Shown here: one piece after another, positions 8,635-13,496 of the stretch
How the letters are laid out: the number at the start of each line of letters is the position of its first letter
Numbering within the stretch: position 1 is the stretch's first letter
From: Flavicella sp.
Lineage (GTDB): Bacteria; Bacteroidota; Bacteroidia; Flavobacteriales; Flavobacteriaceae
DNA: 40,455 bases
Assembly: GCF_029238425.1 (NCBI RefSeq)
Contig: NZ_JAQWGB010000156.1
Coordinates: forward strand, 1 to 40,455
Direction of reading: 5' to 3'
The notes under the pieces: generated by a model
Databases searched by the model: none
Seen by the model: only the letters and a program-made list of their open reading frames with translations
Told to the model about the DNA's origin: nothing
Translations under genes and position numbers: made by a program

Positions 8635-8664
8635 TATTGGTAAATTTTGTTTACTTTTGTTTAC
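8635..8664 (+). promoter_or_regulatory. tandem decamer direct repeats in the CarH-like gene promoter
   Basis: Two identical decamers TTTTGTTTAC lie back to back at 8645-8654 and 8655-8664, preceded by a degenerate third copy TATTGGTAAA (8635-8644, 6 of 10 matches). A TACTTTTG match to the -7 consensus TAnnTTTG (8652-8659) lies inside the repeats, 21 bases before the regulator's ATG. Head-to-tail repeats with about one helical turn of spacing are the kind of site bound by the CarH tetramer in Thermus. I infer that this is an autoregulatory operator; binding is not shown. Confidence 0.5.
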
Positions 8665-8680
8665 ATAAAACTAACTTTTG

Positions 8681-9577
8681 ATGAACAAAATTAAAGATTC
8701 TTTTTTGATCCAAGATTTGGAGACCCTAAGTGGTATCAAGGCACACACAATTCGTATTTGGGAAAAAAGGTATAATTTATTGAATCCCGAGAGACTCAAC
8801 AGAAACATAAGAAAATACAGTTTAACCGATCTACAAAAGCTTTTAAACGTAAGTATACTTTATAGTAATGGCTATAAGATTTCTAAACTTTCATTGCTGT
8901 CTGATGAAGAATTGCATGAGACTGCTAGAAAAATTAGTCTTGAGTCTGTAGCAAGTAACTATAACGTAAATACACTTATTCTTGCCATGTATGCCTTTGA
9001 TGGAGATCAATTTGATAAGGTTTACAATGAGCTATCTGAATCCATGGGCTTTGAAGAATTGTTTGTCAAAGTCTATATACCTTTATTAGATCATATAGGA
9101 GTGTTGTGGCAAACCGATGCTATCAAGCCTGCTCATGAGCATTTTATTTCAAATTTAATTATTGGAAAAATAGTTTTAAATACTGCTGAAATTTCTTCCG
9201 TGACTTCTGAAGATACTACTACATATGTTTTGTATCTTCCTGTAGGAGAGTTGCATAGTTTGGGATTGTTGTTTTTAAATTATTGTTTAAAAAAGCGAGG
9301 TAAAAAAACAGTATATTTAGGAGGAGGAATTCCTTTTTCTAATCTGCAGACCTTGAACACAAAATTTCCATCCATAAAATGGATTTGTTCCTTTGTTGTA
9401 GAAAGAACAAGGGAAGAGAAAGAAGCTTTTTTGTTTGAATATGTTGATTTTTTAAAAAAATCTGATAGTTCAAGTTTGATTGTGGGCAGAGTTATGGAGG
9501 AAGTTTCTGGAAAAGAGGAGTTTAAAGAAAGAATTACATTTTTTAATAGTTTTAAAGAATTGCCATTTTTTGAATAA
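8681..9577 (+). CDS. CarH/LitR-like MerR regulator with cobalamin-binding domain
   Basis: 298 residues. An N-terminal MerR winged helix (about 8-75, with GIKAHTIRIWEKRY at 18-31) is followed by a helical B12-capping domain and a Rossmann-like cobalamin-binding domain. The capping motif W-x9-EH is exact (Trp143, Glu153, His154). The B12 motif E-x-H-x-x-G is present (Glu190, His192, Gly195), followed by YLGGGIPFS (212-220). His192 should be the lower cobalt ligand. CarH proteins use adenosylcobalamin as a light sensor, repressing carotenoid genes in the dark and releasing DNA in light. The carotenoid operon starts 40 bp downstream. The residue after the Trp is Gln144, where Thermus CarH has the His that ligates cobalt after photolysis. 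I take the ATG at 8681; the TTG just before it is unnecessary. Confidence 0.85.
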   Translation: MNKIKDSFLIQDLETLSGIKAHTIRIWEKRYNLLNPERLNRNIRKYSLTDLQKLLNVSILYSNGYKISKLSLLSDEELHETARKISLESVASNYNVNTLILAMYAFDGDQFDKVYNELSESMGFEELFVKVYIPLLDHIGVLWQTDAIKPAHEHFISNLIIGKIVLNTAEISSVTSEDTTTYVLYLPVGELHSLGLLFLNYCLKKRGKKTVYLGGGIPFSNLQTLNTKFPSIKWICSFVVERTREEKEAFLFEYVDFLKKSDSSSLIVGRVMEEVSGKEEFKERITFFNSFKELPFFE

Positions 9578-9586
9578 ATATTTTTA

Positions 9587-9617
9587 TTTGTTTAATTAAT
9601 TTATATATTTGTTAAAC
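9587..9617 (+). promoter_or_regulatory. candidate crt operon promoter/operator
   Basis: In the 40 bases between the regulator and crtI lie TTTGTTTAA (9587-9595) and TTTGTTAAAC (9608-9617), spaced 21 bases apart. They resemble the decamers upstream of the regulator. A perfect -7 match TATATTTG (9604-9611) overlaps the second copy. This suggests crtI can be transcribed separately and controlled by the same regulator. The element is very close to the ATG (9618), so the transcript would be nearly leaderless. Inference only. Confidence 0.4.
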
Positions 9618-11087
9618 ATGAGAAAAAAAGTAAAAGTATTAGGTTCTGGGTTTTCATCATTATCGGCAGCATGCTATTTAGCAAAAGAAGGCTGTGATGT
9701 TGTTGTTTATGAAAAAAACAGTCAAATAGGAGGAAGAGCTAGACAGTTTAAAAAAGAGGGTTTCTTGTTTGATATGGGACCTACTTGGTATTGGATGCCA
9801 GATGTGTTTGAACGTTTTTTTAAAGATTTCAATCGTACTCCTGATGCATACTATAAACTGGAGAAATTAAACCCTGCTTATGAGGTCTATTTTGGTTTAG
9901 GTGACAGCGTAAAGATTGGAGATGATTTAGATAAAATTTATACTCTTTTCGAAAAAGAGGAAAAAGGGAGTTCTAAATATCTTAAAGATTTTTTGAAACT
10001 AGCAGAAAACAATTATAATGTTGCTGTGAAAGATTTAGTATATCGACCTGGGGTTTCACCTCTAGAATTGATTAGCCCAAAAACAGTGACCAAATTAAAT
10101 CAGTTGTTTTTTGATATCAGAAAGTTAATCCAAAAAAGATTTAACAATCCAAGATTGATAAAAATCTTAGAATTTCCTGTATTATTTTTAGGTGCAAAAC
10201 CTGGTAATACACCAGCGATGTATAACTTCATGAATTGGGCAGATTTCGGTTTAGGAACTTGGCATCCAAAAGGAGGGATGTTTGAAGTGGCAGATGGAAT
10301 GGCCTCTTTAGCAAAAGAACTTGGAGTTACGTTTGTTCTTGATGCAGCTGTGGACAAGATTGCTGTAAATGCAAATGGAGTTGCGGAAGGAATTGTTGTG
10401 AACGATGAATTTGTGGAAGCTGATATAGTATTAAGTGGTGCTGATTATCATCATACAGAAAAGTTATTGGCAGAAGAGTACAGACAATATTCTGAGAAAT
10501 ATTGGGATAAAAAAACGTTCGCACCTTCGTCGCTACTGTTTTATGTTGGGTTTGATAAGAAAATTGAAAATGTTTCTCATCACACGTTGTTTTTTGATGA
10601 GGAATTTGATTCTCATGCCGAATATATATATGACACACCGGCATGGCCAAAAGATCCATTGTTTTACGCTAGTTTTCCAAGTATTAGTGATGATGCCTTT
10701 GCCCCAAAAGGGAAAGAAGCAGCAACTTTTTTAATTCCTATCGCAGCTGGGTTAGAGGATACCGAAGCCTACAGAGAGCAATATTTTGATATTATCATTG
10801 ATAGATTAGAGAAATTGACTGGGCAAAAAGTAAAAAATTCTGTATTGTTCAAAGAGTCTTATTGTGTCAAGGATTTTATAAAAGATTACAATTCGTATAA
10901 AGGAAACGCTTATGGATTAGCGAACACTTTAACACAAACAGCATTTCTTAGACCAAAAATTAAGAGTAGTAAAGTAAATAATTTGTATTTTACTGGTCAG
11001 TTAACGGTGCCAGGACCAGGAGTACCACCAGCGTTGATCTCAGGTAAAATTGCAGCAGAACTAATTTTAAAAAAGGAAGGGAAATGA
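9618..11087 (+). CDS. crtI: phytoene desaturase
   Basis: A 489-residue FAD-dependent CrtI-type desaturase that converts colourless phytoene to lycopene by successive dehydrogenations, acting at the membrane. The N-terminus has the dinucleotide-binding motif VKVLGSGFSSLSAA (5-18), then VVVYEKNSQIGGRA, the acidic end of the FAD fold. The region around FDMGPTWYWMP and the C-terminal flavin motif LYFTGQLTVPGPGVPPAL are characteristic of CrtI. I start at the ATG at 9618 (MRKKVKVLGSG); a TTG three codons earlier gives no better alignment. The stop overlaps the crtB start by four bases (ATGA at 11084-11087), indicating translational coupling. First gene of the carotenoid operon. Confidence 0.95.
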   Translation: MRKKVKVLGSGFSSLSAACYLAKEGCDVVVYEKNSQIGGRARQFKKEGFLFDMGPTWYWMPDVFERFFKDFNRTPDAYYKLEKLNPAYEVYFGLGDSVKIGDDLDKIYTLFEKEEKGSSKYLKDFLKLAENNYNVAVKDLVYRPGVSPLELISPKTVTKLNQLFFDIRKLIQKRFNNPRLIKILEFPVLFLGAKPGNTPAMYNFMNWADFGLGTWHPKGGMFEVADGMASLAKELGVTFVLDAAVDKIAVNANGVAEGIVVNDEFVEADIVLSGADYHHTEKLLAEEYRQYSEKYWDKKTFAPSSLLFYVGFDKKIENVSHHTLFFDEEFDSHAEYIYDTPAWPKDPLFYASFPSISDDAFAPKGKEAATFLIPIAAGLEDTEAYREQYFDIIIDRLEKLTGQKVKNSVLFKESYCVKDFIKDYNSYKGNAYGLANTLTQTAFLRPKIKSSKVNNLYFTGQLTVPGPGVPPALISGKIAAELILKKEGK

Positions 11088-11923
11088 AAGAATTATTCGA
11101 CAAAGTATCCGATTCTACAGCAGTAATGATTACAAAAATTTACAGTACTTCTTTTTCAATCGCTGTTAGGTTATTGGCCCCAAGTATCCGACAGGCAGTA
11201 TATAATGTCTATGGGTTTGTTAGAGTGGCCGATGAAATTGTAGATAGTTTTGACGGTTTTGAACAAAAACAATTGTTGGATAGGTTTGAGGATGAATACA
11301 ATTATGCTCGAGTTTATGGTATAAGTTCTAATCCTGTTATCAATGCATTCCAAAGAACTGTAGAAGAGTATGATATTGACCGTGAATTAGTGGATGCCTT
11401 TTTAAGAAGTATGCGTGCCGATTTAACGAAACAGGTGTATGCTACGGAAAAAGAGATAAAGGATTACATTTATGGATCTGCCGATGTGGTAGGTTTGATG
11501 TGTTTGAAAATATTTGTTCAAGGGGATCAAGAAAAATATTTACAATTAGTAGAACCTGCAATGAAATTAGGCTCTGCTTTTCAAAAAGTCAATTTTTTAA
11601 GAGATTTTAAAGCAGATTATGACGGTTTGAGTAGAACCTACTTTCCTAACGTAGATCCGAACAAACTTACGAAGGAAGACAAAGAAAATATTATTAGAGA
11701 TATTCAAATTGAGTTCGACGAGGCCTTAGGTGGTATTAAAAAATTACCGAAAGAAGCTAGATTAGGAGTCTATGTTGCTTATAGATATTACCTAAGACTT
11801 TTGAAAAAAATAGACAATACTCCGGCTCCAGCTTTGTTGGAAAGTAGAATAAGAGTTTCTAATGGGTTGAAAACTTATTTATTGTTTAAATCTTATGTAA
11901 GGTATCAGTTTAATATAGTTTAA
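11084..11923 (+). CDS. crtB: phytoene synthase
   Basis: A 279-residue member of the squalene/phytoene synthase family, which condenses two geranylgeranyl diphosphates head-to-head to give phytoene. Both Asp-rich substrate/Mg2+ motifs are present: Asp50-x3-Asp54 within VADEIVDSFDG, and Asp174-x3-Asp178 within FLRDFKADYDG. YGFVRVADE is the usual signature around the first motif. The length is typical of bacterial CrtB. The start overlaps the crtI stop by four bases, and the next gene begins two bases after its stop. It supplies the substrate for the CrtI enzyme encoded just upstream. No GGPP synthase gene (crtE) is in the window. Confidence 0.95.
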   Translation: MKELFDKVSDSTAVMITKIYSTSFSIAVRLLAPSIRQAVYNVYGFVRVADEIVDSFDGFEQKQLLDRFEDEYNYARVYGISSNPVINAFQRTVEEYDIDRELVDAFLRSMRADLTKQVYATEKEIKDYIYGSADVVGLMCLKIFVQGDQEKYLQLVEPAMKLGSAFQKVNFLRDFKADYDGLSRTYFPNVDPNKLTKEDKENIIRDIQIEFDEALGGIKKLPKEARLGVYVAYRYYLRLLKKIDNTPAPALLESRIRVSNGLKTYLLFKSYVRYQFNIV

Positions 11924-11925
11924 GA

Positions 11926-12360
11926 ATGAAAGGATTTCTTATGTGTTTTTTATTGACAGTATTTTTTTCTGAAAGTCAGACGATAATGAATAATTTTCAT
12001 GAACTGCAATCGAAGCAAGATGAAGAAAATTTTTTAAAAGAATTCTCAGCTAATTCTGATGTTGCAGTACAAGCTTATGTTTGTGCAGTGGAAATGAAAC
12101 AAGCGGAATATGCAATCAATCCAATTTCAAAGCTGAAAATTTTTAACAAAACCAAAAAGAAATTAGCTTTGCTGATAAAGGATCATCCAAATAATATTCA
12201 TCTCCGGTATGTGCGTTTGTTGTTGCAAGAAAAAACACCTGCAATTCTTGGATACAAAGATAATATCGACGAGGATACCCGTTTCCTTAGAAATGAAATT
12301 AAAAATAACAATATCTCTAAAGAGTTTCAGACTTTTATAGAGAGCAATACATCTATATGA
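11926..12360 (+). CDS. unknown exported protein inside the carotenoid operon
   Basis: A 144-residue protein with a short N-terminal hydrophobic segment (residues 3-14) followed by SESQ, consistent with a signal peptide cleaved near residue 18. The mature part is mostly helical and charged, with no cysteine motif or known catalytic signature that I recognise. Segments such as YAINPISKLKIFNKTKKKLALLIK and HPNNIHLRYVRLLLQE suggest a helical-repeat-like fold. It starts two bases after crtB and its stop overlaps the crtZ start (ATGA at 12357-12360), so it is translated as part of the crt message. I believe similar small proteins lie between crtB and crtZ in other Flavobacteriia, but cannot check. 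A role in carotenoid handling or membrane placement would be a guess. Confidence 0.75.
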   Translation: MKGFLMCFLLTVFFSESQTIMNNFHELQSKQDEENFLKEFSANSDVAVQAYVCAVEMKQAEYAINPISKLKIFNKTKKKLALLIKDHPNNIHLRYVRLLLQEKTPAILGYKDNIDEDTRFLRNEIKNNNISKEFQTFIESNTSI

Positions 12361-12806
12361 CTTACTTAATTTATTTTGCAATTACTGTTTTTACATATTT
12401 AGCCATGGAGGTAGCAACTTGGTTGACTCATAAATATGTGATGCATGGTTTTTTGTGGGTATTGCATGAAGACCATCATCAGCCAAAATACCAGCATGCA
12501 TTTGAAAAAAATGATGCTTTTTTTGTAATAGGAGCCATTCCGAGTATTACATTGTTTTATTTTGGAGTTCACCCCGAGTTGAATTATAAATTTTTTATTG
12601 GATTAGGTGTTTTGTTTTATGGAATTACTTATTTCCTAGTACATGATGTTTTGATTCATCAAAGATTTAAATGGTTCAAAAAAACAAAAAACAAATACCT
12701 TATAGGTTTGAGAAAGGCACATAAAGTGCATCATAAGCATTTAGGAAAAGAGGACGGAGAGTGTTTTGGAATGCTAAATGTTCCTAATAAATATTTTAAA
12801 ATATAA
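12357..12806 (+). CDS. crtZ: beta-carotene hydroxylase
   Basis: A 149-residue membrane di-iron hydroxylase of the fatty-acid-hydroxylase superfamily. It adds hydroxyl groups at the 3 and 3' positions of the beta-rings, turning beta-carotene into zeaxanthin through cryptoxanthin. All four histidine clusters are intact: H25-x4-H30, H37-x2-HH41, H96-x4-H101 and H122-x2-HH126. Hydrophobic membrane segments lie between them (about 3-23 and 54-96). It is coupled to the preceding gene through a 4-base overlap. There is no crtW ketolase in the window, so the expected end product of this operon is zeaxanthin rather than astaxanthin. Confidence 0.95.
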   Translation: MTYLIYFAITVFTYLAMEVATWLTHKYVMHGFLWVLHEDHHQPKYQHAFEKNDAFFVIGAIPSITLFYFGVHPELNYKFFIGLGVLFYGITYFLVHDVLIHQRFKWFKKTKNKYLIGLRKAHKVHHKHLGKEDGECFGMLNVPNKYFKI

Positions 12807-12812
12807 AATTTG

Positions 12813-13496
12813 ATGACTCCGTTATATTTTTATTTGTTAGTGGGGTCCTTAAGCGTTCCTCTTTTGTTTTCTGTTTTTGTAATTGACTTTGTGAAAAAAT
12901 TGAAAAATTTTCTCATTTCAACTTCCATAGTTGCTTTGGTGTTTTTAGTATGGGATGTCATATTTACGGAAAATGGGGTTTGGGGCTTTGAAGAAAAATA
13001 TTGTTTAGGCATTCATATTCTAAAAATGCCGATTGAAGAATGGCTCTTCTTTTTTATTATTCCTTTTTGTAGTTTATTTACGCATTTTGCTTTTTTTTAT
13101 AAGTTCCCAAAAGTGAAATTGCCAAGAAACTTTACAAGACTTTTCACAGTGGGATTAAAACTTTTGTGTTTGTATTTAGTGTTTTCCAACGCTCATAAAG
13201 CATATACCTCTGTTAACTATTCTTTTTTATTCGTTGTCTTAGCTATAGGCTTGTTTTTTAATATTGAATTGTTGCAAAAATTTTATATTTCTTTTCTTAT
13301 CATTCTTGTGCCTTTTTTTCTTGTGAATGGAGCGCTTACCGGTATGTTTACAAACATTCCTGTTGTGTGGTATGACAATACAGAGAACTTGGGAATTCGA
13401 TTGATTAGTATTCCTATAGAGGATATTGGCTATGCCTTTTCCATGTTGTTTGGAAATTTATTTTTATTTGAAAAATTAAACGCTTTTAATAAATGA
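12813..13496 (+). CDS. lycopene beta-cyclase, fused CrtYcd type
   Basis: A 227-residue polytopic membrane protein with about six or seven hydrophobic segments. Two related halves each carry the acidic motif of the heterodimeric CrtYc/CrtYd cyclases: PIEEW (73-77) and PIEDIGY (201-207). In actinobacteria these halves are separate proteins; here, as in other Bacteroidota, they form one chain. The enzyme closes both ends of lycopene into beta-rings, giving beta-carotene for CrtZ. I use the ATG at 12813, six bases after the crtZ stop; the TTG at 12810 would add one residue. Its stop overlaps the next gene by four bases. It is unrelated in sequence to the flavin-dependent CrtY. Confidence 0.9.
   Translation: MTPLYFYLLVGSLSVPLLFSVFVIDFVKKLKNFLISTSIVALVFLVWDVIFTENGVWGFEEKYCLGIHILKMPIEEWLFFFIIPFCSLFTHFAFFYKFPKVKLPRNFTRLFTVGLKLLCLYLVFSNAHKAYTSVNYSFLFVVLAIGLFFNIELLQKFYISFLIILVPFFLVNGALTGMFTNIPVVWYDNTENLGIRLISIPIEDIGYAFSMLFGNLFLFEKLNAFNK

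Follow-up and report, generated by a model that had tools for sequence, protein, structure and literature searches.

The gene at the head of the carotenoid operon of Flavicella sp. encodes a divergent CarH-like regulator, and the balance of the evidence favors, with some reserve, the view that it is a repressor of carH and the crt genes of the CarH kind, which depends on adenosylcobalamin (AdoCbl), is released by light, and ends in an aquo- or hydroxo-cobalamin state. We infer AdoCbl binding, oligomer formation, repression, the light response, and the product state from what is directly in hand, namely the sequence, the predicted fold, the conservation of motifs, the gene order, repeats upstream of carH and crtI, and the co-occurrence with the adenosyltransferase PduO. 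At the site of His132 of Thermus thermophilus CarH (TtCarH) the protein has a glutamine, Gln144, which is the rule among the sampled Flavobacteriaceae proteins encoded next to crtI. This kind of system is already known; the clade, the glutamine, the operator-like repeats, and the tie to PduO make up a variant that we did not find described, and a literature search, which covered papers outside subscription journals, found no study of a flavobacterial CarH.

The Carotenoid Locus

The regulator gene lies at positions 8681..9577 (plus strand) of the window, i.e., the whole analyzed stretch of 40,455 nucleotides, and encodes 298 amino acids from its ATG, as defined by its open reading frame (ORF), Pfam, the alignment, and the predicted fold. 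The genes upstream of it encode gyrase/topoisomerase IV subunits. Downstream follows the gene for a crtI-type phytoene desaturase (9618..11087, plus strand), which scores 723.4 bits with the NCBIfam model NF058655 (CrtID; cut-off 640), and its ATG at 9618 is separated from the carH stop by 40 bp, which confirms the preliminary description of a regulator that directly precedes crtI. The next genes in order are crtB, encoding a phytoene/squalene synthase-like protein (11084..11923, plus strand; PF00494), a 144-aa ORF inside the operon (11926-12360) without a Pfam or NCBIfam match, a 149-aa ORF (12357..12806, plus strand), the gene for a lycopene cyclase (12810..13496, plus strand; PF18916, TIGR03462), and the gene for a Polyketide_cyc-like protein with a score just below the Pfam cut-off. 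The 149-aa protein has no significant match in Pfam or NCBIfam, and from its His-rich motifs, seen by eye, it is a probable CrtZ-like carotene hydroxylase. The genome assembly (215 contigs, 92.7% complete) contains a single copy of the carH-like gene, and the nearest named relative, Flavicella marina, has a homolog with 60% identity that is its sister row in the tree.

Two sets of relatives were compared. The first is an alignment of 153 distinct full-length homologs, TtCarH and an Azoarcus homolog included, from which three short rows and three duplicates had been dropped. The second is a Flavobacteriaceae set of 64, consisting of 60 stretches from the match list of the regulator and four from PduO-less genomes. 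The crtI gene directly follows the CarH-like gene in 117/217 rows (66/153 and 51/64), a count in which some loci end early; rows were called crtI-adjacent when crtI lay no more than 120 bp away in the same orientation (66 of the 153 rows).

Other arrangements were also observed. An ORF of 159-203 aa is present between carH and crtI in loci L067, L068, L072, L075, L079, L084, and L103, all from other families of the same class, and is absent from the Flavicella sp. operon; the three that were scanned (L067, L072, L075) encode ECF-type sigma factors. In two loci of uncultured Flavobacteriaceae (L005, L006), this place is taken by a longer ORF (562 or 587 aa), which is internally repetitive and looks secreted by eye. 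A half-length homolog, 50% identical over residues 28-166, is encoded on a contig that was binned as Methylophilaceae (L010).

Cobalamin Motifs and Predicted Fold

The Pfam scan identified a MerR_1 domain (PF13411) at residues 10-71 (8.9e-12) and a four-helix B12-binding_2 domain (PF02607) at residues 98-160 (1.2e-8), both over the cut-off, and gave no match to PF02310 in the C-terminal part. All motif residues named in the preliminary description of the MerR-type protein were found in place: Trp143, which is followed by Gln144 (codons 9107..9112, with that of Gln144 at 9110-9112), Glu153 and His154 of the adenosine-capping motif W-x9-EH (9137..9142), and Glu190, His192, and Gly195 of ExHxxG (9248..9265), all on the plus strand, with His192 as the predicted lower cobalt ligand. 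Beyond these motifs, the regulator contains GxxW (G140) and GxxxP (G214, P218), so that the signature of light-responsive cobalamin domains, GxxW, EH, GxxH, and GxxxP (SignatureFinder, PMC11796333), is complete (G140-W143, E153-H154, G189-H192, G214-P218). Among the 153 homologs in the MAFFT alignment, W143 is kept in 150, E153 in 152, and H154 and H192 in 145 each, while W143, E153, and H192 are each present in 64/64 added rows; over all rows, the Trp is found in 214/217 and the lower-ligand His in 209/217. The signature is less uniform elsewhere, as the position of Gly189 is Asn in 58/64 added rows and Pro218 is lost in 8/64, six of which stem from PduO-positive genomes without methylmalonyl-CoA mutase.

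An AlphaFold2 model, computed from an alignment of 66 window and locus sequences of 115 non-redundant picks, reached a pLDDT of 90.2 and a pTM of 0.73, and its best Foldseek match was TtCarH (5c8e). With VIA, the match to the B12 domain of TtCarH had a Z of 18.5 (2.6 A over 192 residues), tied within 1 with CtMerR of Chloracidobacterium (Z 18.0) and the photocobilin SasPcob (Z 17.9); these rows mostly span residues 90-298 and barely test the MerR part. The model aligns to both TtCarH B12 domains over residues 91-297, and strands and helices alternate over residues 180-288, which differs from the four-helix bundle alone that defines class II LitR. The oligomer interface of TtCarH, which we take to comprise the Arg176-Asp201 salt bridge, Gly160, and Gly192, is mostly replaced in the regulator: the Arg-Asp pair corresponds to Leu191/Gly216 and Gly160 to Thr175, and Gly192 is the sole residue kept, as G207. 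Therefore, the oligomer of the regulator may differ. Trp143 and Gln144 end a helix (residues 124-144) that resembles the TtCarH helix 113-134, by which Trp131 is carried (PMC10442372).

A review defines CarH homologs by W-x9-EH together with ExHx2Gx41SxV/Tx22-27GG (PMC8156234). The regulator has the W-x9-EH typical of CarH and class I LitR, the retained W143 separates it from CarA, which lacks this Trp, and ExHx2G is followed after 41 residues by S237-F-V239; in place of a GG within the next 22-27 residues, it has Val268-Gly269 after 28 residues. Across all rows, the most common residue is Tyr at position 237 (106/217) and Thr at 239 (151/217), and Gly269 is found in 212/217. The score with the NCBIfam CarH equivalog NF052513 is 64.6 bits, compared to a cut-off of 400. 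Because of the VG, the low equivalog score, and the absent salt bridge, the protein is described here not as a strict member of the family but as one of a divergent CarH-like clade, which should work like CarH.

Residue 144

Both phmmer and MAFFT align Gln144 with His132 of TtCarH, and thus the glutamine was rightly placed in the preliminary description; it had also been presented as an altered photochemistry residue, and in the alignments Gln is not unusual. Site 144 is occupied by Gln in 75 of the 153 homologs, by Gly in 20, Leu in 11, Thr in 7, and His in 6, with other residues in the rest. In the 66 crtI-adjacent rows the distribution is 59 Gln, 3 His, 3 Ser, and 1 Ala, and in the second Flavobacteriaceae set Gln is found in 64/64. 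As the majority of the rows rank high among the matches to the regulator, the share of Gln over all Flavobacteriaceae is less certain than these counts would imply. The tree clade that includes the regulator has 64 Gln and 3 His among 67 rows, and over the whole tree Gln requires 8 changes, both figures having been obtained with a quick method that flagged long branches. Elsewhere in the Bacteroidota the site is Gly, Leu, Thr, Arg, Met, Lys, or others. Therefore, Gln is no single clean marker, and the suggestion that it might define a Bacteroidota clade did not hold up.

Variation at this site has been described for characterized proteins. CtMerR has an Arg, SasPcob a Gln, and AbDPcob a Tyr, all three respond to light in spectra, and the site has been called variable (PMC11796333). 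CtMerR turns from a tetramer into a monomer in the light (PMC11796333), and both CtMerR and SasPcob form aquo/hydroxo-cobalamin upon illumination (PMC11796333, PMC10979010); in SasPcob, AdoCbl is photolyzed to a water/hydroxide-bound product, and the light structure is a monomer with water or hydroxide on the cobalt (PMC10979010). For the TtCarH variant H132A, one study found that it stays mostly tetrameric after light, and the same study refers to previous work in which disassembly was reported (PMC10442372). The idea that Gln144 is a unique or disabling change is in conflict with the alignments and with the published light-responsive proteins that have Gln or Arg, and it was rejected. Of the two possibilities raised in the preliminary description, the first, a different product state, is more probable, with CtMerR (Arg) and SasPcob (Gln) as precedents, while the use of B12 as a plain ligand is disfavored by the intact adenosine-capping motif and the retention of PduO. 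As His and Gln replace each other naturally among the crtI-adjacent rows (59 Gln, 3 His, 66 rows in all), the role of this residue is testable in homologs.

Operator-Like Repeats

Upstream of carH an operator-like pair, TTTGTTTACTTTTGTTTA, was found at 8646..8663 (plus strand), which consists of two TTTGTTTA with a spacing of 10 bp and overlaps the -7-like box TACTTTTG of carH (8652-8659). Upstream of crtI, the pair TTTGTTTA / TTTGTTAA, with a spacing of 21 bp (9587..9615, plus strand), overlaps the -7-like box TATATTTG of crtI (9604-9611). Both boxes were read by comparison with what we take to be the Bacteroidota -7 box. In 100-bp regions upstream of carH from 66 rows (two short ones were dropped from 68), TTTGTTTA was present in 55/66, compared to a mean of 2.2 and a maximum of 7 in dinucleotide shuffles; it starts exactly 25 bp before the carH ATG in 41 of the 66 regions, and the form TAnnTTTGTTTA occurs in 50/66. 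The second set gave a similar picture, with TTTGTTTA in 51/64 regions, 42 of them at 25 bp. This fixed distance and the form TAnnTTTGTTTA imply an overlap with the -7 box. Where carH and crtI are separated by 30 bp or more, the gap contains two TTGTTWA with a 21-bp spacing in 16/41 cases (shuffle mean 0.03) and the palindrome TTGTTNAACAA in 17/41 (shuffle mean 0.12).

Published CarH operators consist of 11-bp repeats with a TnnACA core (PMC9304148). The reverse complement of the repeat, TAAACA, fits this core and resembles TGTACAAAAG, TTGACAAAAC, and TATACATTG in the Thermus carH-crtB gap. Taken together, the TTTGTTWA repeats seem to be operator-like sites, and their placement on the -7 box suggests repression. 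Within the Flavicella sp. assembly, no other exact pairs with a spacing of 10-21 bp exist beyond 8646-8663 and 9587-9615. The genome-wide count of motif pairs was 2 forward and 0 reverse, and the reversed control gave 3 in either direction; because the pattern was drawn from the same two sites and is not above this control, the count proves nothing alone, and a wider regulon based on motif pairs was discarded.

Supply of Adenosylcobalamin

The regulator, PduO (PF01923), and methylmalonyl-CoA mutase (PF01642) were searched for in the same sample of 397 Flavobacteriaceae genomes. A CarH-like homolog (E <= 1e-10, paralogs included) was found in 321/397, PduO in 367/397, and the mutase in 349/397 genomes. 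CarH is present in 315/367 PduO-positive versus 6/30 PduO-negative genomes. Among the 48 mutase-less genomes, CarH occurs in 23/29 with PduO versus 2/19 without it (Fisher p 3.7e-6). The difference persists with one genome per genus (12/17 versus 1/10, p 0.004), without the two genomes with the ribonucleotide reductase NrdJ (11/15 versus 1/10, p 0.004), and at a completeness of at least 90% (11/15 versus 2/10, p 0.015). Genome reduction and gaps in the assemblies act as confounders of this association. The four sampled Flavicella genomes all contain PduO and CarH (4/4), and neither the mutase nor NrdJ over the cut-off was found in them.

Exceptions occur in both directions: six mutase-less genomes have PduO without CarH (G180, G228, G249, G251, G333, G383), two genomes of the genus g64 have CarH without a match to PduO, CobA, or the mutase (G064, G280), and four have CarH and the mutase without a match to PduO or CobA (G008, G048, G062, G375). 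In the small genomes of genus g64 (L173, L174), the CarH-like gene adjoins crtI, and the W, the EH, and the lower His are intact, while the Pro of GxxxP is lost. This Pro is also lost in the CarH of six of the seven mutase-less, PduO-positive small genomes among the added rows (Thr or Gln in L199, L218, L233, L244, L245, and L247; L246 keeps it), and for these six loci no crtI match was present in the few hundred bases read downstream. The Flavicella CarH proteins in the 153-row alignment keep the Pro.

The search for other AdoCbl users comprised the mutase, NrdJ, and, in the Flavicella sp. genome, PF02310. NrdJ was rejected as the reason for the presence of PduO, since only 2/48 mutase-less genomes score over the cut-off, one with CarH (G202) and one without (G251); a further 43 match below the cut-off and are presumably class I reductases. 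In the Flavicella sp. genome, PF02310 was found only in methionine synthase, with a radical-SAM protein below the cut-off. Methionine synthase uses methylcobalamin. A CobA-type adenosyltransferase was not found in the seven genomes searched, nor a cobalamin riboswitch (RF00174, E <= 0.001) in the Flavicella sp. genome. In published experiments on the CarH of Myxococcus xanthus, the synthesis of AdoCbl required PduO. As PduO is kept without the mutase and tracks CarH, the most economical reading is that mutase-less genomes keep AdoCbl for the CarH-like regulator. This suggests why some bacteria have kept the adenosyltransferase after the loss of the mutase. It is a more tentative thought, possible yet rather doubtful, that Flavicella and about ten other Flavobacteriaceae genera, in which neither the mutase nor a class II reductase over the cut-off was found, make AdoCbl solely, or almost solely, for a Gln-type light sensor; scavenged B12 would then be adenosylated by the retained PduO for a CarH in which Gln occupies the site of the bis-His ligand, and the perception of light would be the only purpose for which the vitamin is converted to its coenzyme.

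Proposed Mechanism and Alternatives

The motifs, the predicted fold, the operator-like repeats, and the B12 gene content all support the initial proposal of a CarH-type B12 sensor beside the crt genes. In the dark, AdoCbl would be bound base-off via His192, and Trp143 and Glu153 would cap its adenosine. The loaded regulator would oligomerize and occupy the TTTGTTWA repeats, thereby covering the -7-like boxes of carH and crtI and silencing the crt operon. Light in the visible to near-UV range would split the Co-C bond, adenosine would leave, and the regulator would drop off the DNA. Since Gln144 replaces the His, a bis-His end state is not expected, and the end state would be His192-Co(III)-water/hydroxide. 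The binding of AdoCbl is very likely, the repression of carH and crtI is judged highly probable, and release by light is likely; as these three steps are linked, it is still probable that they hold jointly, and somewhat less so once the aquo/hydroxo end state is included. Several points speak against this mechanism: the missing PF02310 match, the VG for GG, the absence of the TtCarH interface, the PduO exceptions, and the loss of Pro218 in the very mutase-less group on which the PduO argument is built.

Some of these points would suit a regulator for which AdoCbl or another cobalamin is a plain co-repressor, and which reports the B12 supply and does not usefully respond to light. A bis-His state is impossible with Gln, the Arg176-Asp201 pair is not conserved, many relatives have an incomplete GxxH or GxxxP, and the H132A variant of TtCarH was largely tetrameric in the light in one study (PMC10442372). 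However, an almost invariant adenosine-capping motif, the light response of proteins with Arg or Gln at this site, and neighbor genes for the synthesis of carotenoids, which are photoprotective, make this explanation unlikely. A bis-His end state could still arise if another His filled the upper cobalt position after photolysis. The best candidate is His152, which adjoins Glu153 of the adenosine cap and is present in 62/75 Gln144 rows and 62/64 added rows, but rows in which site 144 is His, Lys, Arg, Met, or Glu contain it as well, and 13/75 Gln144 rows have Gln or Asn in its place. Its presence is thus not tied to the absence of His132, co-variation lends it no support, and we regard this ligand as highly improbable. 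Equally little probability is given to a crt repressor that, like CarA, works without B12 and whose B12 domain is vestigial, or to a regulator of another signal: CarA has lost the Trp of W-x9-EH, which is kept here almost throughout together with the lower-ligand His, and the co-occurrence with PduO also argues against it, although the VG, the missing PF02310 match, and the genus g64, which keeps the gene without an adenosyltransferase match and with the Pro of GxxxP lost, would be in agreement with such a protein.

Comparison With Known Systems

With TtCarH/LitR (PDB 5c8d, 5c8e, 5c8f, 8c31) the regulator shares the MerR domain, the four-helix bundle, the Rossmann-type B12 domain, W-x9-EH, ExHxxG, x41-SxV, a TnnACA-type operator core, and the proximity to a carotenoid gene, which is crtB in Thermus. 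However, the identity is only about 20%, the regulator has Gln for His132 and VG for GG, it is devoid of the Arg176-Asp201 pair, and the repeats have spacings of 10 and 21 bp, compared to 11 bp in Thermus; with Gln144 right after the Trp, it falls outside the bis-His subtype of TtCarH. CtMerR (PDB 8jbs, 8jbt) is also of the MerR type, with a non-His residue at the 132 site and the light-responsive signature, but this residue is Arg instead of Gln and the protein is from another phylum. SasPcob of Saccharothrix (PDB 8j2w, 8j2x) shares the Gln (PMC11796333), but contains a bilin-binding domain, has no DNA-binding domain, and is a dimer only with biliverdin bound. The myxobacterial CarH and CarA are likewise repressors of a crt operon, and CarH requires AdoCbl, which is made by PduO in M. 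xanthus, but many of these CarH homologs have a His after the Trp, and CarA is without the Trp. Closer in phylogeny, the crt clusters of Nonlabens, also Flavobacteriaceae, start with a "MerR family" gene (PMC11855829), which is likened to carH here by its description and not by its sequence; the accessible text of that report names it only MerR (MarR in one legend) and contains no B12 or light reading (PMC11855829).

Should the flavobacterial proteins be repressors that light releases, the control of carotenoid synthesis by a B12-based light sensor would be widespread in the Flavobacteriaceae, and it would do without the His to which the Thermus structure gave a central role. A separate paralog clade, mainly from Flavobacteriaceae (L093, L105, L135-L140, L142-L157; L096 and L104 are from another family), has Gly or Thr, and in one case Val, at the His132 site. 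In the loci read, its members were never found directly upstream of crtI, and crtI was nearby in several of them.
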